From Synechococcus sp. MU1642 (GTDB lineage Bacteria > Cyanobacteriota > Cyanobacteriia > PCC-6307 > Cyanobiaceae): 64,000 nucleotides of DNA. Of this stretch, positions 39,159-64,000 are shown in pieces; within the stretch, counting starts at the first letter, position 1; the number at the start of each line of letters is the position of its first letter. The stretch is taken from positions 62,001-126,000 of the forward strand of contig NZ_VTKZ01000003.1 in the NCBI RefSeq assembly GCF_020514115.1, given 5' to 3'. The position numbers and the translations under genes were made by a program. The notes beneath the pieces are model-generated. The model ran no database searches. It saw only the letters and a program-made list of their open reading frames with translations, and was not told the DNA's origin.

Positions 39159-39344
39159 ATGGCGTCTACACCTGCTCCGATCCTTCCCGGCACCACCGTG
39201 ACCGTGGCCGATGCCACCTCCATCTACAACGGCTACACAGGCTTCGTTCAGAGGATCAGCGGCGACTGTGCGGCAGTTTTATTTGAGGGTGGCAACTGGG
39301 ACAAGTTGGTGACTATTCGTTTGAAAGACCTTCAGCCGGCCTAA
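39159..39344 (+). CDS. ndhS: NAD(P)H dehydrogenase-like complex subunit NdhS
   Basis: A 61-residue SH3-like protein matching the NdhS family (DUF3252, CRR31 in plants), which forms part of the ferredoxin-docking site of the photosynthetic NDH-1 complex. The body [26 protein letters not shown] and [21 protein letters not shown] is almost the whole family signature. ATG 39159 is chosen; the longer frame overlaps rimM. It is the last core gene before the AT-rich insertion; a weak GGCCT/AGGCC hairpin follows at about 39337-39367. Confidence 0.85.
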
Positions 39345-39964
39345 GGAGACGGACAAGGCCTTCTTTGTAACAGCGCCGTCATATTCGGGTGTTTCTGCTG
39401 AGTGTTTTGGCGGTCTTGGGGGAGTCTGATCACATTGGCAATTCGCCTCTGCTCCAGATGAATGTTTTTTTGAATCGATCAGGCGCAAAACCTCCGCTTG
39501 GGGTTTTTGCTGCGGACTTCGTTCTCAATCTGGTCTTGGCGAAGAAGACGCGCCACTACCTCTTTGGCTTTACTGGATTGCTCGATATCTCGGCCGTGCT
39601 GTGCTTTTTTGCTTCGTAGCTGTGTAGCGATAGTCTGCTTTAAGTGTTCAATTCTGGCCAAATTCGACGGTTACTCAAGCTGCTCAAGTTCATTGGCTAA
39701 GCCCGCTTATTGTAACAGAGGCTGAGGAGCATTGACCGCACCATTGGTGTTATCCTCTTCTTTTTTCTTCGCCTCTAATTGTTCTCGGATACAGCAGTAT
39801 TCTCGTGAAATAGCTCTTAGACTGAGATCTACCAATTTTGCTCTTGTGCCGGGGAAAGACTTATTTGGATCTTGTGATCAATCGGGTTTTGGTATTGGAA
39901 TATGCGTCAGAGGCTAGACTGATAATTATGTCCCTGCTATGATAAATAAGAAGTAGGTGTGAAA
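39345..39964. other. 620-base AT-rich stretch without a supportable gene
   Basis: Base composition falls here compared with the flanking core genes. Open frames are short (60-76 codons), use poor starts and show no recognised domain. A minus-strand frame at 39479-39661 (TTG start, charged helical) could be a gene remnant. The bases just before 39965 (AAGTAGG) can serve as ribosome-binding site for the next gene, so the operon promoter is probably here. I see no integrase, IS end or repeat. Confidence 0.6.
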
Positions 39965-41404
39965 ATGATTACCCATTTTGCTGATTTGACTGAAATCGGA
40001 ACTTGCTTGGCAAATTCTCTCGTTTGCAATGATCCACTGAATTCAGCTAAAAAAGTTAGTTATTTGATTGATAGAGCTGCATCCTCCTCGAAGGTTTCTA
40101 TAAAATTCAAAGATATACAGGATTTGAATCGCTGGGAAGTAAGCCGCCAAGATATAAGCCATGAAACTGGTAAGTTTTTTCAGATTGTTGGAATTGATGT
40201 TGCATGTCCTGAGCTAAATCTTTCATGGCAGCAGCCAATTATTTATCAGCCTGAAATAGGGATTCTAGGCCTTTTGTGCACTAAGATAAGAAATACTCTT
40301 TACTTCCTTGTTCAATTAAAAGTAGAGCCTGGCAATATAAATTATATTCAATTGTCTCCCACAATTCAAGCTACACGTAGTAATTTTCTTGCAGCACATG
40401 GTGGAAAATCGGTACCATTTCTGAATTATTTTCGCTTCCCTGGTCAACAAGAATCATGTAAAATACTAGTAGATCAATTACAGTCAGAGCAAGGCAGTAG
40501 ATTTCTGGCGAAGCGTAATCGCAATATAATTACTTACGTAGAAAATTTTGATAGCGATAAAATTCCGGAGAATTTTGTATGGCTTACATTGAGTCAAATT
40601 AAAGGCTTCTGCCTTCAGGACAACTGCGTAAATATGGATTTGCGAACAATTGTCTCGTGTATCAACTATTGCGACTTCATGGAAGGATGTGAATCTTTGA
40701 GTGAAATAATGCCTAACTCTAGAAATGCCGATGCTCTCAGATTTTATTTTAGTTGTTATAAACCAAATGATTCTGAGCGCAAAATTTTGCTATCACATTT
40801 AAGTACTTTAAAAAGCGAGCACAGTCTCTTTGTTTCAAAAATACCAATCAGTGAAACAGATAAGTGGGAATTAGTCAATGGAAAGCTAAGTCATCGCGAC
40901 TCTCTTTATTTTGATGTTCTTGGAGTGAATATTAGTCTGATGGGCAGGGAGGTGAAAGATTGGGATCAACCTCTTGTTGCTCCATGCTCAGTAGGTGAAA
41001 ACGTCTTATTTATTAAAAAAACTGCTGATAGCCTTCTTTGCCTTGTCCAATTTAAATTAGAATGCGGCACTAAAGACATTATAGAAATTGCGCCAACAAT
41101 TCAAACAAGTTCACAAAACAAGAAAAGTCCTGTAGAGCAATATCTGTATGATATGTATCATGCAACAATGCTTGAAAAAACTTCCATTATATGCTCAACA
41201 TTACAGTCAGAAGAAGGCGGTCGATTTTACAGAGAGGAGAATAAAAATATAGTTTTAGATGTTGCTGGAAAAGATATTGCGCTATCCAGTTCATATTATA
41301 TGTGGATTTCAATAGGCACGCTTTCAGACTTGTTGAGATACAATAACTTTGTTAATATACAGCTCAGAAGCCTTTTGAGTTTATTGCAGCCTTCAATGTT
41401 ATGA
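39965..41404 (+). CDS. NDP-hexose 2,3-dehydratase family protein
   Basis: A 479-residue protein made of two related halves, the hallmark of NDP-hexose 2,3-dehydratases (EvaA/TylX3/SpnO type). Half 1: RWEVS at about 56, HETGKFF 66-72, W88-Q-Q-P, LVQLKVEPGN 115-124, QLSPTIQAT 129-137. Half 2: KWELV at 300, LSHRDSLYF, DWDQP about 332, LVQFKLECGT 360-369, IAPTIQTSS 375-383. Such enzymes remove the C2 hydroxyl of an NDP-4-keto-6-deoxyhexose to give a 3,4-diketo-2-deoxy sugar. I start at ATG 39965; a GTG six bases earlier is possible. AT-rich unlike its core neighbours. Overlaps the next gene by ATGA. Confidence 0.88.
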   Translation: MITHFADLTEIGTCLANSLVCNDPLNSAKKVSYLIDRAASSSKVSIKFKDIQDLNRWEVSRQDISHETGKFFQIVGIDVACPELNLSWQQPIIYQPEIGILGLLCTKIRNTLYFLVQLKVEPGNINYIQLSPTIQATRSNFLAAHGGKSVPFLNYFRFPGQQESCKILVDQLQSEQGSRFLAKRNRNIITYVENFDSDKIPENFVWLTLSQIKGFCLQDNCVNMDLRTIVSCINYCDFMEGCESLSEIMPNSRNADALRFYFSCYKPNDSERKILLSHLSTLKSEHSLFVSKIPISETDKWELVNGKLSHRDSLYFDVLGVNISLMGREVKDWDQPLVAPCSVGENVLFIKKTADSLLCLVQFKLECGTKDIIEIAPTIQTSSQNKKSPVEQYLYDMYHATMLEKTSIICSTLQSEEGGRFYREENKNIVLDVAGKDIALSSSYYMWISIGTLSDLLRYNNFVNIQLRSLLSLLQPSML

Positions 41405-42357
41405 ATATAGGTCTTATTGGGGCATCTAAAATAGCCAATAAAATAATGGCAAAGTCGCTTATTGATGCAGGCTTTAATATCGTCGCAGTAGCATCATCGA
41501 ATCAATTGCGAGGAATAGAGCTTGCCGAAAAATATAACGCTAGATATTATCAAAATTATGCGGATTTAATATCTAGCGACGAAGTTAATTCATTGTACAT
41601 ATCGCTGCCAAATTCATTGCATTACTCTCTCGCGCGTTCGGCGTTGTCTGAGGGAAAAAATGTATTGATAGAAAAACCTATCACACTTACTTTATCGGAA
41701 TCACAAGAGCTTGTCAAAACTGCTCGAAGTAATAATCTCTCAATCATGGAAAATTTTCAGTTTCAATATCATGATCAGTTCGAATTTATTGCAAAAGAGA
41801 TTGAAGTCGGATCCCTTTCTAATATAAGGTCCATCTTCGTGAAGTTTGGATTTCCGCTATTTTCTGACAAAGGTAATATTCGCTATCAAAAAAGTCTTGG
41901 AGGCGGTGCGCTTTTAGACGCAGGTGCTTATATCTCGAAAGTCTCTTCGTTATTGATGAATGGTGATGACTATAAAGTCTTATCGAGCTTGTCTAGTCGG
42001 AAGAATTACGATGTTGATATGTTTGGCTCCTGTATCATAACCGAGAAAAATACAGACTTTTCTGTATTGGGTAGTTGGGGATTTTGCAATGAATATCAGT
42101 GCTCCTTAGAAGTTTGGTCAGAAGATTCCATTATGACATTTAATAGATTTTTCACTGCGCCCCCTGGCTTCCATGCACCAGTAAAAATTAAGTCGCTTGG
42201 ACAAGAAAAAGATATTTTTTTTAGTGACGATTGCTACATTAAGTCAGCAAATCAATTTCGGCTTTCAATTACAGATTCCACAATACGTGAGCGAAGTTAT
42301 TCAGCTAACATTAAACAGTCTCTCCTGTTAGAATTAATAAAATCGACGGCGATCTAA
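41401..42357 (+). CDS. Gfo/Idh/MocA-family oxidoreductase, probable NDP-hexose 3-ketoreductase
   Basis: A 318-residue NAD(P)-dependent sugar oxidoreductase. Rossmann start IGLIGASKIANKIM (Ala replaces the middle Gly), the family EKPIT motif with Lys92, and the catalytic-loop GGGALLDAGAYISK at 167-180. In deoxysugar pathways this family supplies the 3-ketoreductase that follows the 2,3-dehydratase (SpnN, TylC1 type); the assignment comes from the neighbour, not from this sequence alone. Overlaps both neighbours (ATGA upstream, TAATG downstream), so the three genes are translated as a unit. Confidence 0.85.
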   Translation: MNIGLIGASKIANKIMAKSLIDAGFNIVAVASSNQLRGIELAEKYNARYYQNYADLISSDEVNSLYISLPNSLHYSLARSALSEGKNVLIEKPITLTLSESQELVKTARSNNLSIMENFQFQYHDQFEFIAKEIEVGSLSNIRSIFVKFGFPLFSDKGNIRYQKSLGGGALLDAGAYISKVSSLLMNGDDYKVLSSLSSRKNYDVDMFGSCIITEKNTDFSVLGSWGFCNEYQCSLEVWSEDSIMTFNRFFTAPPGFHAPVKIKSLGQEKDIFFSDDCYIKSANQFRLSITDSTIRERSYSANIKQSLLLELIKSTAI

Positions 42358-43427
42358 TGCTCCAAGTAACATCTCCATCGCTCGCCCCGATCGAAGATTT
42401 TGCAAACATTCTATCTACCGCTTGGGAGAGTGGGGTGCTGACCCATAACGGTCCTCTCTTAAGGGATCTTGAGCATCAAATTAAAAACCGTCTGTCATTA
42501 GATAGATATATAGCCGTTGTCAATGGTACTTTGGCTCTTCAAATGGCTATTCGTGCTTTACATCTTAAGGGTACTATCATTGTTCCGGCATTTACATGGA
42601 TAGCATCAGTATCATCAATACAATGGGAGGGCTGTAAAGTTAAATTCTGCGATATTGATGAAGAAACTCTAAATATTAGCCTTTCGTCACTCGAAAAAGA
42701 GATTAATGAAGATGTAGTTGCGGTAATGCCTGTTCATGCTTTTGGTAATCCTTGTCCCGTCAAAGAAATTGCTGCTTTTGCAAAGAGATATTCAATTAAA
42801 GTAATCTATGATGCTGCCCATGCCTTTGGAAGTACTTACAATGGTAAATCAGTTCTTTCTTATGGTGATATCAGTTGTACTAGTACTCACGCGACTAAAA
42901 TATTTAATACAGGCGAGGGAGGGGGTTTGATCCCCAGCACAGATGCTTTAAGCAAAAGATTAGAGCGCCTTAGATTCTTTGGTTATAATTCAGATAAACA
43001 AATTGAGGATATTGGGACAAATGGCAAAATGACTGAAATACATGCTGCTTTGGGCTTGGCTAATTTGAAGTTCCTAGAAAAAACATTTCAACATCGCAGA
43101 ATATTGAACGAACTTTATAGAGACGAGCTGCAGTCTTTTGGGAGAGTTAAATTCCAGCAAATTTCAGAAGGAAGTAACTATTCCTACTTTCCATTGATTT
43201 TTAATTCGGCCGATGACATGCTTGCTGCGCAGTCAGCATTGATTGGAGACCACTTTATACCAAGAAGGTATTTTTATCCTTCGCTAAATACAGTTCCGCA
43301 GTGCGCTGATGATTCAACAATGCCTGCTTCAGAGTCAATAGCTTCGAGAATATTATGCATCCCTTGCTCGAACAGTGTTAGTGTCGATGACGCTTGGAGA
43401 ATTGCAAAATTAATTCGATCTAATTAA
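42357..43427 (+). CDS. DegT/DnrJ/EryC1-family sugar aminotransferase
   Basis: A 356-residue PLP enzyme that aminates a keto-sugar nucleotide. The phosphate-binding NGTLALQMAIRAL starts at residue 56, Asp162 of YDAAHAFG binds the pyridine nitrogen, and Lys181 in STHATKIFNTGEGG forms the Schiff base. FFGYNSDKQIEDIGTNGKMTEIHAALGLANL is the usual dimer/substrate loop. With the two preceding genes it would make a 4-amino- (or 3-amino-) deoxysugar. No cognate glycosyltransferase or nucleotidyltransferase lies beside it. About 135 AT-rich bases follow before rnc. Confidence 0.9.
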   Translation: MLQVTSPSLAPIEDFANILSTAWESGVLTHNGPLLRDLEHQIKNRLSLDRYIAVVNGTLALQMAIRALHLKGTIIVPAFTWIASVSSIQWEGCKVKFCDIDEETLNISLSSLEKEINEDVVAVMPVHAFGNPCPVKEIAAFAKRYSIKVIYDAAHAFGSTYNGKSVLSYGDISCTSTHATKIFNTGEGGGLIPSTDALSKRLERLRFFGYNSDKQIEDIGTNGKMTEIHAALGLANLKFLEKTFQHRRILNELYRDELQSFGRVKFQQISEGSNYSYFPLIFNSADDMLAAQSALIGDHFIPRRYFYPSLNTVPQCADDSTMPASESIASRILCIPCSNSVSVDDAWRIAKLIRSN

Positions 43428-43564
43428 TTTTTAAGGTATCTATATCTTGTCTTATTCGATAAAGCTCCTGCGATTATTTTGCATGAGGGTTTTTTGGAAG
43501 AGCAATACTCAATGTCGTGCATTGCATAATTTATGTGAATTAAATGACGGCGTTTATAGTATTT

Positions 43565-44278
43565 TTACGTCTCGTAGCCTTTGTCAAGAGCTTTAAGAGC
43601 AGCTGTAGCGGCATTTTGTTCGGCCTCCTTGCGTGAGCGGCCTTTTCCCTCCCCAAGTACCTGGTCTTGGATGCTCACCTGGCAGAGGAAGCGGTCTGGG
43701 TCACCGTGCTTGTGGCTGCATTCTTCTGTGAAGTAGTGAGGCAGTCCCAGCGCCTGACCTTGGCTCCACTCCTGCAGTGCTGTTTTGCCGTTGAACTGGT
43801 GGGGAGTGGCCAGCACCGCTCGGGCTGTGGAGTGCCAGTGGGGGGTTAGCCAGCGGTGAATGGCCTCAAGGTTCCCAAAGCTGGCGTAAATGGCACCTAT
43901 GAGTGCTTCGGTGGCATCGGCCCGCAGCCTGGATTGGGCAGAACGATCCCCTTGGGCGTGCCGACCCAGCAACAGGTGTTTTTCGATGGCAAGCGTTGCG
44001 CCAACGTCCGCCAGCCAGCGGTCGCTGACCAATTGTGCCCGCAGGTTGGAGCAGGCACCCACCGCGAGATCGGAGTAGTAGCGGTCTATAAATTCGGTGG
44101 CGGCTAGCCGCAGCACTGCATCCCCCAGAAACTCAAGCCGTTCCAGGTTGCGGGTCCGGCCGGTCGATATGTGGGTGAGAGCCTGGTCCACTAGGACCAG
44201 CAGTTCCGTTTCGATCGGGATCTGACTGCCGAGGCGCTGGATCAGGTCGGTGATCTCTGTGGCGCGGGATGTATCCAC
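43565..44278 (-). CDS. rnc: Ribonuclease III
   Basis: Double-strand RNA endonuclease for rRNA and mRNA processing. The 237-residue product has the catalytic signature LERLEFLGDAVLRLAATEF with its acidic residues, RADATEALIGAIY for the second metal group, and a C-terminal dsRBD (KTALQEWSQGQALGLPHYF to GRSRKEAEQNAATAALKAL). It starts 30 bases after the 3' end of rnpB on the same strand, so the two may be transcribed together. Confidence 0.95.
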   Translation of the reverse strand: MDTSRATEITDLIQRLGSQIPIETELLVLVDQALTHISTGRTRNLERLEFLGDAVLRLAATEFIDRYYSDLAVGACSNLRAQLVSDRWLADVGATLAIEKHLLLGRHAQGDRSAQSRLRADATEALIGAIYASFGNLEAIHRWLTPHWHSTARAVLATPHQFNGKTALQEWSQGQALGLPHYFTEECSHKHGDPDRFLCQVSIQDQVLGEGKGRSRKEAEQNAATAALKALDKGYET

Positions 44279-44307
44279 ATGAACTCCTTAGCAGCACTCA
44301 TAGGGGT

Positions 44308-44709: not shown

Positions 44710-44719
44710 TCAGAGGTCT

Positions 44720-44793
<74 letters not shown>

Positions 44794-44886
44794 TAGGAAT
44801 TGCTCAAGAGGTAGTGAACGCTACATCTGGTGGGGTGTGCAGATCGTTCACCACCGCTAGGGTTGTTGTAATCGGCTTGGGGTGCA

Positions 44887-60839: not shown

Positions 60840-61553
60840 ATGTCCGTTGCACTGGCTGCCCAGATTCGTGAAGGCACGAAAAAATCCCACACCATGGCCG
60901 AAAACACCGGCTTCGTGAGCTGCTTCCTGAAGGGTGTCGTCGACAAATCCAGCTATCGCAAGCTGGTGGCTGATCTCTATTTCGTTTACTCCGCCATGGA
61001 GGACGAGATCAGCAAGCTGACGGATCATCCAGTTGTTGGGCCTGTGGCCATGGCCCAGCTGAACCGTCGTGAGGCTTTGGAGCAAGACCTTACCTACTAC
61101 TTCGGTGAGAGCTGGAAGGAAGAAATCAAACCCTCCCCCTCGGCCGCGGCCTACGTGGAGCGTATTCACTCTGTGGCCCAGGAGTCTCCTGAGCTGTTGG
61201 TCGGTCATCACTACACCCGTTACCTAGGGGATCTCTCCGGTGGTCAGATCCTCAAGAACATCGCCCAGAAGGCGATGAATATGGAGGGGGATGCTGGCCT
61301 GCGTTTTTACGTCTTCGACGACATTGCCGATGAAAAGGCGTTCAAGGCGACCTATCGCTCCGCCATGGACACGCTGCCGATCGATCAGGCCATGGCAGAT
61401 CGCATCGTGGAGGAGGCCAACCACGCCTTCCACCTCAACATGAACATGTTCAAGGAGCTGGAAGGCAACTTGGTGGCCGCCATCGGCAAGGTGTTGTTTG
61501 GTTTCCTCACTCGCCGTCAGCGTGCTGGCAGCACGGAAGCAGTTACTGCTTAA
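60840..61553 (+). CDS. ho1: Heme oxygenase (biliverdin-forming)
   Basis: Opens heme to biliverdin IX-alpha, the precursor of phycobilins, using ferredoxin. The 237-residue protein has His17 in KKSHTMAENTGF as proximal ligand, the distal helix HYTRYLGDLSGGQILKNIAQ and the conserved EANHAFHLNMNMF. ATG 60840 gives the family start; the upstream frame extension is not conserved. Its last base is shared with the start of the glycosyltransferase downstream (TAATG), a strange partner for a pigment gene. Confidence 0.97.
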   Translation: MSVALAAQIREGTKKSHTMAENTGFVSCFLKGVVDKSSYRKLVADLYFVYSAMEDEISKLTDHPVVGPVAMAQLNRREALEQDLTYYFGESWKEEIKPSPSAAAYVERIHSVAQESPELLVGHHYTRYLGDLSGGQILKNIAQKAMNMEGDAGLRFYVFDDIADEKAFKATYRSAMDTLPIDQAMADRIVEEANHAFHLNMNMFKELEGNLVAAIGKVLFGFLTRRQRAGSTEAVTA

Positions 61554-62593
61554 TGGCATTGATTCATGAACCCGAAACGCCGTTTAAGGCGATTCGGGTT
61601 TTGGTACCTGGTCTTGGTTCACGTTTTCGTTGTGGCGGCTTAAGTGTGGCGAAGCAGACAGTTCGTTTGCTCGCAGAACTGCGGCCTACAACTCTTGTTA
61701 CCTACAGAGAGCGGACTGCCCAATGCCCCTTTCTTAAAGATCTGCTGAAAGAAGAGTCCAAAGATGCTAACTCTCTTTGGATAATTAGTTGGGGTTTTGA
61801 TGTTCCAAGGTTGCTTAAACTCCTCCGCGGAAAAAATCTTATTTACCACGCTCATAGTTCGGGATATGGTTTTAAACTTCCTCCCAATGTCCCGATTGTT
61901 GCGGTAAGTCGAAATACAATGGGTTATTGGGGCCATCATGCACCGAGAAATCCCTTATTTCTTGTATCTAATGCACTGGAATCTCAATGGATGGAGAGAG
62001 GAGATCTTGAGGGAGATTTTGAAGAGAGGCCTATAGATATTCTTGTTCAAAAAAGAAAGAGTAGTAATTACCTGTTATTTGAATTAGTACCGGCTTTGCG
62101 CGCCAAGGGTTTTCGTGTTGAAATTCAAAGCGATTGGGTGGAAGACATAGTTAATTTATTCAATAGTTCTAAGGTGTTTTTGTACGATTCTAGAGATCAT
62201 TGGTCTTCAGCTGGAGTAAGCGAGGGGTTCGGCCTTCCTCCTTTAGAGGCAATGGCATGTGGCTGTATAGTTTTCAGTAGTTTAAATCACGCACTTTCAG
62301 ACATTCTTACACCTGGGGAAATCGGACATCAAATTGGTTGCGCTTCAATATCTAATGATGTCGATAGAATTTCTGCTGCGCTCCTTAACCCAACTGAATG
62401 GAAGCCATCCGTGCAGAAATTAGGTTTTGCATTGCAAGACTTCACCGAAGAATTACACGTAAAACGGTGGAAATATGTTATCAAAAATCTTGAGCAATTT
62501 CTCCCCAATCTCAACCAATCTGATTTGATTAGAAGGCATTCTCGGTATCGCATTATTACCAGTAAATTGTTTAGCAAGTTTTTATATGTATAG
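61553..62593 (+). CDS. GT4-type glycosyltransferase, AT-rich
   Basis: A 346-residue sugar transferase with the E-x7-E signature at Glu224 and Glu232 in SEGFGLPPLEAMACG and the following GCIVFSS loop. The N-terminal half (ALIHEPETPFKAIRVLVPGLGSR) is atypical, lacks a clear GT-B acceptor signature and may bind an unusual acceptor. Base composition drops sharply after about 61700, unlike ho1, so the gene looks horizontally acquired, although its first bases overlap the ho1 stop. Donor sugar unknown. Confidence 0.8.
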   Translation: MALIHEPETPFKAIRVLVPGLGSRFRCGGLSVAKQTVRLLAELRPTTLVTYRERTAQCPFLKDLLKEESKDANSLWIISWGFDVPRLLKLLRGKNLIYHAHSSGYGFKLPPNVPIVAVSRNTMGYWGHHAPRNPLFLVSNALESQWMERGDLEGDFEERPIDILVQKRKSSNYLLFELVPALRAKGFRVEIQSDWVEDIVNLFNSSKVFLYDSRDHWSSAGVSEGFGLPPLEAMACGCIVFSSLNHALSDILTPGEIGHQIGCASISNDVDRISAALLNPTEWKPSVQKLGFALQDFTEELHVKRWKYVIKNLEQFLPNLNQSDLIRRHSRYRIITSKLFSKFLYV

Positions 62594-62925
62594 GTAAGTT
62601 TTTTGATTCTTGCTTTAGATAATTCTTGCTCGTCTTTTCAAGTATATTTCGACAGAATATTGCTTAAGCTCTTTCGAATCGGGTTTTTCTGTTAATACCT
62701 ACTATTTATGCTTACCTCGGAAAAATTTTTACGATATTTAAGGCCACGCGTGTATTTCAGGTTGAATTGGTTTCGAACTAACTTAATAGATTATCTAGAG
62801 GTGGTTTTTATCAGGCCTCTAGAGGTGAATATAGCTGAGCTAGTGGTCAATCAATTGAGTGGCTGTCTCCACTAGTCCGAAATTTGAGCTTAGGCATTTA
62901 AGTTGGACTTTATTAGCTGCTTAAT
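62594..62925. other. 332-base AT-rich gap
   Basis: Very AT-rich, with no open frame I can support and no terminator hairpin that I recognise. It separates the glycosyltransferase from the ABC exporter and probably holds its promoter. Confidence 0.6.
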
Positions 62926-64000
62926 GTGCAAAATCTTTTTGCAAGCAAGACAGTAGTCGGATTGAGGCAACTTATTAATTACATTGATTCAAATGTCTTG
63001 TTTAGACTTTGGTTTTTGCTGCCGGTCTCGATATTATCTGGATTTCTTGATTTTGCTGCAGTTGCAGTGATTGGAAGGCTAACCGGCAGCCTTGTTGGGA
63101 GTGATCTTGCAAATATTCTTCCTGGCATTAAAGTTTTCGGAGCTAGTATATATGAACAGTCTTTGTGGTTAATAGCAATCTTTATAATAGTCAATTGGCT
63201 TCAGTCAGTTGTCCGTCTAACGCTGCGTTTAATGCAAGAAAATCTCGCTGGTGAGTTATGGCTTGATTTATCTGGACGTATCTATAATCAGATTTTAGCG
63301 CAGCCATACGAAAGTCATCTTTCTGGGAATGTCACATCTCTAGCTTCTGATTTACTTTCTAATCTAGAGGCGCTACTTAGAGATATACTTACTCCCTCAT
63401 TGAGAGCAGCAAGCTGTTTAATTAGCATTGTCATGTTAGTAACTGGAATATTGTATGTAGGTGGAGGTGCGTCTTTCGTTTTAATAGTATCGATGCTTTT
63501 GATGTATGTTGCATTATCATATTTAATAACCCCTACGCTGCGTGTTGCGTCAAAGCTTAAAATTATCGCCAGGGAAAGATATACAAAAAGCTTTTTTGAA
63601 TCTCTTGGTTCGATTGCTGATCTTAAGCTTGGCTTGAATGAGCAATATTTTATTAGTCAATACATAGATGCGACACAAACTTATAAAAAGTCAGTTGTTA
63701 ATGCGATTGTATTTCCGGAAATTCCAAGGTTGTTTATTGAACCTTTGGGTATTTCTGCTATATTTTTGGTGGGTGTGTTGCCACAAGTCCTTTCAGGACA
63801 GCAAGAGCGAATTATTGAAGTACTTCCATTTTTGTCAGTATTAGCTGTTGGTGCTTTAAGACTGGCAAAACCCCTTCAAGATCTTTTCGCTTCTGTTTCA
63901 ATACTGAGGGGTGGACTTCCAGAAATAAATAATATCATATCTCTCGTCGATAAAACAAATACATTTAGACAATTCGATATTCGAAAAGATACTGTCTGTG
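62926..64000 (+). CDS. ABC exporter transmembrane domain, N-terminal part (partial)
   Basis: An open frame of about 358 codons from GTG 62926 to the right edge without a stop. It is the membrane domain of a type IV ABC exporter: LLPVSILSGFLDFAAVAVIG helix 1, LWLIAIFIIVNWLQSVVRL helix 2, LRAASCLISIVMLVTGILYVGG, a pair of helices near LIVSMLLMYVALSYLITPTLR, and FIEPLGISAIFLVGVLPQVLSG followed by the linker LVDKTNTFRQFDIRKDTVC. The ATPase half lies outside the window. The overall pattern recalls PglK/lipid-oligosaccharide exporters, but the ABC signature cannot be seen. AT-rich like the upstream glycosyltransferase. Confidence 0.8.
   Translation, partial: MQNLFASKTVVGLRQLINYIDSNVLFRLWFLLPVSILSGFLDFAAVAVIGRLTGSLVGSDLANILPGIKVFGASIYEQSLWLIAIFIIVNWLQSVVRLTLRLMQENLAGELWLDLSGRIYNQILAQPYESHLSGNVTSLASDLLSNLEALLRDILTPSLRAASCLISIVMLVTGILYVGGGASFVLIVSMLLMYVALSYLITPTLRVASKLKIIARERYTKSFFESLGSIADLKLGLNEQYFISQYIDATQTYKKSVVNAIVFPEIPRLFIEPLGISAIFLVGVLPQVLSGQQERIIEVLPFLSVLAVGALRLAKPLQDLFASVSILRGGLPEINNIISLVDKTNTFRQFDIRKDTVC

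Follow-up and report, generated by a model that had tools for sequence, protein, structure and literature searches.

A 64,000-nucleotide stretch of the 2.1 Mb genome of Synechococcus sp. MU1642 (code G000; G000:C21:62001-126000, hereafter the window) carries a cassette of three overlapping genes, which encode a 2,3-dehydratase (DH), a Gfo/Idh/MocA oxidoreductase (OX) and a DegT-family aminotransferase (AT). The cassette is foreign in composition and was probably acquired horizontally; equivalent linked genes occur in bacteria of gut and water and in large phages. Judging from the sequence, this probably co-transcribed set is likely to turn dTDP-4-keto-6-deoxyglucose into dTDP-4-amino-2,4,6-trideoxyhexose, a sugar that would probably be destined for a surface glycan. 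What is new here is the channel gene that the cassette replaced, the repeat use of the insertion site, the related cassettes in Gram-negative bacteria and phages, and the parallel sets in which DH and OX are accompanied by a WecE-type aminotransferase; none of the steps is new in kind.

The three genes and their sugar supply

The first-pass annotation of this DNA had described three overlapping genes, the first of them a two-repeat dehydratase, in a region richer in A+T than its flanks, and both the open frames and the Pfam matches agree with it (Table 1). DH and OX overlap by 4 bases (ATGA) and OX and AT by 1 base (TAATG); the ATG of DH is preceded by an in-frame GTG at 39959, an alternative start. 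The GC content is 36, 37 and 39% for DH, OX and AT, in a window of ~62% GC, and the GC content at third codon positions is 30-34% in the cassette genes versus 66-80% in four nearby core genes. A TATGAT box lies upstream of the cassette, at 39938-39943. Scans for promoter-like sites (14, versus 10.7 with a standard deviation of 2.9 in shuffled sequences) and terminator-like sites (2 versus 4.3) were discarded, as they provide no evidence.

Table 1. Features of the cassette and its surroundings, in window coordinates
Feature	Position	Strand	Basis
Remnant of a K+-channel pseudogene (voltage-gated type), residues 33-192 of 275, 7 in-frame stops	39389..39874	+	genome search with intact relative
DH: predicted EvaA-type NDP-hexose 2,3-dehydratase, two Nudix-like domains, 479 aa	39965..41404	+	PF03559 twice; EvaA sequence and model match
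OX: predicted KijD10-type Gfo/Idh/MocA sugar 3-ketoreductase, 318 aa	41401..42357	+	Pfam; KijD10 (3rbv) best; K92, Y177
AT: predicted DesI-like DegT-family aminotransferase, 356 aa, Lys181	42357..43427	+	PF01041; DesI top profile match
A+T-rich right junction, cassette to rnc 3' end, 32% GC	43428..43564	.	no meaningful similarity to the L037 channel gene found here
Start of a second A+T-rich island: glycosyltransferase (GT1), ABC transporter	61553..64000	+	candidate glycan-assembly genes

PF03559 matches DH twice (383.5 bits; Pfam cut-off 25), and this is the only PF03559 gene in the MU1642 genome. EvaA of Amycolatopsis orientalis (PDB 4j7g/4j7h) is the only PDB relative found by sequence search, and the AlphaFold model of DH (mean pLDDT 82) aligns with it over 428 residues (Z 45.0, rmsd 2.0). 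Apart from EvaA entries, its best fold matches are Nudix-type proteins, with Z <10. The two proteins have in common the whole-chain fold, two Nudix-like domains per chain and the pocket-A glutamates, with E121 and E175 of DH aligning with E139 and E190 of EvaA. According to the available part of PMC8987622, mutation of E139 or E190 abolishes EvaA activity, whereas changes in pocket B do not. The first-pass annotation had allowed for a dehydratase without activity; the predicted catalytic residues are kept, as are 102 of 119 family-conserved columns (84 relatives). DH differs from EvaA in that identity over the structural alignment is 32%, its host is cyanobacterial and no antibiotic cluster adjoins it. 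Other PF03559 2,3-dehydratases named as the closest known are SpnO, TylX3, OleV and UrdS.

OX belongs to PF01408 (GFO_IDH_MocA; 87 bits, cut-off 24). Its top solved relative is KijD10 (3rbv), with 123 bits for the single sequence and 284.6 bits by profile, the next non-KijD10 chain reaching 155 bits in the profile search; this likeness is one of sequence only. K92 and Y177 of OX, both kept as conserved columns, align with the Lys and Tyr of KijD10 (with an inferred chain offset of 18), which we take to be its active-site residues Lys102 and Tyr186. OX and KijD10 share this pair and differ at five family-conserved positions and in their partner genes. The name WlbA does not appear in the 60 listed of the 80 OX matches or in the 23 profile matches, and a search of NCBIfam with OX matched 10 models, none near its cut-off and none for this activity.

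AT matches PF01041 (DegT_DnrJ_EryC1) with 255 bits (cut-off 19.8) and keeps 78 of 90 family-conserved columns. Lys181, which the first-pass annotation had pointed out, is the pyridoxal phosphate (PLP) lysine, invariant in 22 aligned rows. TIGR04427 (PLP_DesI) is the best of 12 curated models for AT (240.1 bits), and each of the 22 sequences aligned with AT, itself included, matches it, none of them shown above its cut-off. By profile, the first PDB chains are DesI (257 bits), a metagenome sugar transaminase (241) and QdtB, a C3 enzyme (210); the single-sequence search gives DesI 150 bits and WbpE 109.8. With a model of pLDDT 94, the top fold matches are DesI, WecE and perosamine synthase (Z 46.6-46.0). 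Thus AT has in common with DesI (PDB 2po3), the dTDP-4-keto-6-deoxyglucose 4-aminotransferase, the PLP lysine and the best sequence profile and structure match. It would stand in a neighbouring subfamily, and the substrate expected for AT, unlike that of DesI, would be without the 2-hydroxyl.

The earlier claim that the unit draws on genes elsewhere is borne out, since another contig carries rmlB, rmlD, rmlC and rmlA as a single run (C12:9632-13313), with 431, 287, 224 and 495 bits, each above its TIGR cut-off. Therefore, dTDP-4-keto-6-deoxyglucose is available in this strain.

Related cassettes in Bacteroidota, phages and cyanobacteria

Relatives were collected from GTDB genomes with a six-sequence alignment, and the counts that follow are for the best 80 of 528 confirmed relatives, that is, for the closest part of the family. 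By title, 62 of these 80 loci are from Bacteroidota. The order DH-OX-AT, with an AT match above 200 bits, is present in 23 of them, and DH-OX followed by something else in 35; the remainder have DH-OX at a contig end (2), another aminotransferase between DH and OX (8), or neither neighbour or a contig that had ended (12). Nine viral loci, all of them DH-OX-AT, and the cyanobacterial locus L020 have this cassette order too. Recurrent neighbours in 33 related cassette loci are hexapeptide acyltransferases (in 18), flippase-like proteins (in 12), ATP-grasp proteins (in 7) and glycosyltransferases. The clusters with hexapeptide acyltransferase or ATP-grasp suggest that the amino sugar is N-acylated in those loci. 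The MU1642 cassette shares with these unnamed cassettes the gene order and similar overlaps, and differs from them in that no acyltransferase or ATP-grasp gene adjoins it. Matches to rmlA or rmlB above 250 bits are present in the fetched stretch of 14 of the 80 GTDB loci and of 2 of the 5 other cyanobacterial loci, and manC is matched in 0 of 94 loci.

The nine viral loci (IMG/VR; L150-L158) all have the 4-base overlap of DH and OX seen in MU1642, and several are near-identical contigs; 5 of the nine were dropped before trees were built and conserved columns counted. Seven of the nine records carry a large terminase, and the two longest measure 254 and 207 kb. One viral record has rmlB over its cut-off; the other phages may use the rmlB of the host, or their records may be fragments. 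Scans of viral and genome contigs with the single MU1642 DH protein retrieved nothing, whereas the alignment query did match, and tblastn of DH against named phages gave no match. AT matches 31 named phage records; they were set aside as general DegT kin, with 23-31% identity among the 15 matches listed.

Those GTDB and viral aminotransferases that were included in the tree form one clade with AT of MU1642 (28 rows, 96/96), and identity to the latter is 45-51% in 20 aligned cassette rows. A near donor was not found in these searches, in which the best identities were about 40-43% for DH, 38% for OX and 53% for AT. In the DH tree, MU1642 clusters with sequences from viruses, Fibrobacterota and other cyanobacteria, 9 rows in all; long-branch joining is flagged there, and no donor is therefore drawn from it. 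The placement of OX in its tree does not resolve.

Among cyanobacteria, PF03559 was matched in 4 of the 386 genomes searched across the phylum, in 8 of 400 from the family (MU1642 included, and one a fragment) and, in the genus, in MU1642 alone of 34. Elsewhere in the family, DH adjoins OX in G408, G716 and G453, with rmlA and rmlB next door in G716. The aminotransferases of G408 and G453 exceed the cut-off of NF008687, the model for dTDP-4-amino-4,6-dideoxygalactose transaminase (394 and 406 bits versus 375), and stay below that of TIGR02379, which models the WecE subfamily (333 and 354 versus 434.85). The row DH-OX-AT-rmlA-rmlB occurs in G345, from another family of the phylum, with a flippase-like protein and a family 2 glycosyltransferase (GT2) beside it; at L020, where rmlA and rmlB directly follow DH-OX-AT, the aminotransferase is 35% identical to that of MU1642. 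The genomes G437 (L068), G457 (L066) and G474 (L067) have a two-domain DH of ~70% GC, near which no match to OX or AT is present in the 19.5 kb fetched. Nor did tblastn give an OX or AT match in G016 (L022) or in G561 (L069), where DH is a fragment of 74 profile positions.

Genes of the cassette AT type, at a threshold of E 1e-60, were matched in 30 of 300 genomes from the family. The closest relative of AT, with 53% identity, is in the family genome G466 (L197:6136-7230), 4.6 kb from a WbqC-family gene. PF03559 is not matched in G466, and the 5 such genomes tested gave 0 matches; control genomes also gave none, which makes this weak by itself, but the same model did match G000. For AT relatives on plasmids, a WbqC gene is close by in 3 of the 5 looked at and absent near the other 2.

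Proposed chemistry and its alternatives

We propose that RmlA and RmlB of the host supply dTDP-4-keto-6-deoxyglucose, from which DH would remove the C2 hydroxyl, giving a 3,4-diketo-2,6-dideoxy sugar; OX would reduce the unstable 3-keto group, and AT would aminate C4 to yield dTDP-4-amino-2,4,6-trideoxyhexose, which would probably be used for an outer-surface glycan. The reactions and their order are those predicted from the three sequences, and by analogy with DesI the stereochemistry at C3 and C4 would be gluco; the amino group may be N-acylated. The C4 specificity of AT is proposed because of its similarity to DesI and because OX would be the C3 reductase. The first-pass annotation had recognised here the order of activities of actinomycete antibiotic sugars. 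Of the chemistry proposed there, the parts open to test are borne out, by the matches to EvaA, KijD10 and DesI, the catalytic residues and the sugar supply; the closest kin are instead in Bacteroidota and phages. The forosamine route comprises SpnO, SpnN, SpnQ, SpnR and SpnS, and the activities of its SpnO-SpnN-SpnR part correspond, one by one and in their logical order, to those predicted for the cassette. No SpnQ-type C3 deoxygenase or N-methyltransferase adjoins the cassette, whose product, in contrast to forosamine, would keep the 3-hydroxyl.

Several observations weigh against this proposal: (i) AT, with 240 bits, falls far under the TIGR04427 cut-off of 650, and it is for this reason not a DesI equivalog. 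(ii) The fold scores of AT are close (DesI 46.6, WbpE 45.5, DesV 44.2, QdtB 43.6), the C3 enzymes being 1-3 Z units below the C4 ones, and fold thus separates the two specificities weakly. In the comparison with the WlbE/WbpE type, also suggested earlier, WbpE is behind DesI in bits and close to it in fold. (iii) OX keeps 27 of 32 conserved columns, while five other cyanobacterial rows keep 31-32, and three conserved glycines are serine in OX. (iv) In the trees, DH, OX and AT of MU1642 are all on long branches. (v) Matches to rmlA or rmlB above 250 bits are missing from 66 of the 80 GTDB and 9 of 9 viral stretches, many of them cut by contig ends. (vi) No PglD_N protein was found in the MU1642 genome, and among the open frames of the window there is no dedicated glycosyltransferase adjoining the cassette.

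Were AT to act at C3 and OX to reduce C4, the product would be a 3-amino-2,3,6-trideoxyhexose, for which the daunosamine- and vancosamine-type routes are the precedent. The DegT family holds enzymes of both kinds, with the close fold scores just given, and a C3 route would suit the 8 of 80 GTDB loci in which another aminotransferase stands between DH and OX, as well as Streptomyces akebiae, where an aminotransferase directly follows DH. However, those 8 loci use a weaker-matching aminotransferase (84-114 bits), the best model and the best structure by sequence are both of the C4 enzyme DesI, with QdtB at 210 versus 257 bits, and reduction of C3 by the KijD10-like OX would leave C4 as the only ketone. 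AT of G466, which has a WbqC gene near and no PF03559 partner, would likewise fit a plain 4-amino-4,6-dideoxyhexose route, as would the plasmid relatives close to WbqC. We thus consider amination at C3 unlikely. Use of the sugar in a small secreted glycosylated metabolite, as in the actinomycete antibiotics, rather than in an envelope glycan, is the least probable of the alternatives. It finds some support in that the characterised 2,3-dehydratases named in the available part of PMC8987622 belong to pathways for antibiotics or similar metabolites; no frame of the size of a polyketide or peptide synthetase adjoins the cassette, and the recurrent neighbours of the 33 cassettes are those listed above, from hexapeptide acyltransferases to glycosyltransferases. 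Moreover, DH of MU1642 does not group with the three actinomycete sequences in its tree, which has long branches and was made by a quick method.

Distinctly unlikely, too, is that the imported genes are non-functional or in decay, an idea to which the long branches, the departures of OX (5 of 32) and DH (17 of 119) from conserved columns and the absence of adjoining acceptor genes would lend themselves. Two other picocyanobacterial dehydratases depart as often (L064 at 17 and L065 at 20 of 119 columns), all the catalytic residues tested are kept in MU1642 and the overlapping gene junctions are preserved. The three frames stay open for 1153 codons, and the remnant beside them has 7 stops in 160; unless the cassette is a recent arrival, this contrast points to selection on it. 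The three-gene set is real and probably working.

The insertion site and its surroundings

The cassette unit consists of three genes only, and its neighbours are the channel remnant, ndhS, which encodes NdhS upstream, and rnc, which encodes RNase III downstream. The first-pass annotation placed the cassette between ndhS and rnc; the two flanks are as described, and the channel remnant, which had been missed, lies between ndhS and the cassette. The remnant is 70% identical in nucleotides over 430 bases and 56% identical in protein over 119 residues to the channel gene of L037; the intact gene carries PF00520/PF07885. As only channel residues 33-192 are left, the cassette has replaced the 3' part of this gene. 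Direct repeats of the kind left by mobile elements were sought and dismissed: the repeats within 39250-44300 are of <=28 bases and none brackets the cassette. The sole tRNA of the window (44719-44794) is beyond rnc as seen from the cassette.

Comparison of the interval across strains, as the first-pass annotation had proposed, was possible in the 26 of 34 genus genomes, MU1642 included, in which rnc was matched, the 8 without a match being incomplete assemblies. In most of them another gene, the channel, separates ndhS and rnc: of the 25 other genomes, 22 have it intact, as one frame of 272-283 aa. The stretch fetched from 23 of these 25 includes ndhS, at a distance of 545-899 bases from rnc; the exceptions, G541 and G227, also have the intact channel. 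The channel gene is split into pieces in G266 (L039) and G557 (L045) and was not found in G589 (L052), and it therefore appears dispensable. G541 (L159-L160) carries between channel and rnc an insert of ~21 kb, with genes of 33-62% GC that include a cytidylyltransferase, and next to the channel it has a second copy of part of the rnc 3' end; in G227 (L161), the insert in the same place is of ~13.6 kb and 34-42% GC, and includes an RgpF/GT2 protein. Cargo common to the MU1642 cassette and these two islands was looked for, and only flanking rnc DNA matched. We read the channel/rnc junction as a recurrent insertion site in the genus, used in 3 of 26 genomes, a small number.

On a wider scale, we tentatively suggest, with somewhat less than even confidence, that the cassette, complete for dTDP-4-amino-2,4,6-trideoxyhexose, moves among the surface-glycan loci of picocyanobacteria, other Gram-negative bacteria and large tailed phages, that the channel/rnc junction is a recurrent site for glycan islands, that the MU1642 envelope contains a 2-deoxy-4-amino sugar, possibly under phage selection, and that two other picocyanobacteria arrived at this chemistry by way of a WecE-type aminotransferase. 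If this is true, 2-deoxy-4-amino sugars, which are mostly associated with antibiotics, can be part of the envelope of picocyanobacteria, a short cassette suffices for it, needing just the ordinary rhamnose supply genes, and the locus marks a site of repeat use in the genus. With copies of the cassette in phages, phage-driven exchange or phage glycan modification can be put to a direct test. The parts available of two reviews (PMC4515613, PMC4390846) list glucose, rhamnose, glucosamine, galacturonic acid and others as sugars of cyanobacterial lipopolysaccharide and exopolysaccharide, and also name 3,6-dideoxyhexose and 2-amino-2-deoxy-heptose; 4-amino-2,4,6-trideoxyhexose is not named in them. 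The 3-dehydratase in PMC6124807 is, in the part consulted, a gene of GDP-perosamine type. In the open literature, most subscription papers being outside its scope, no report of the cassette in cyanobacteria or phages was found.

A second A+T-rich island, flanked by the genes for a heme oxygenase and a UvrD-type helicase, starts 18 kb downstream of the cassette, and any functional link between the two is a guess. It continues beyond the window (L018), where it encodes an O-antigen-ligase-like Wzy_C protein and a GT2 glycosyltransferase.

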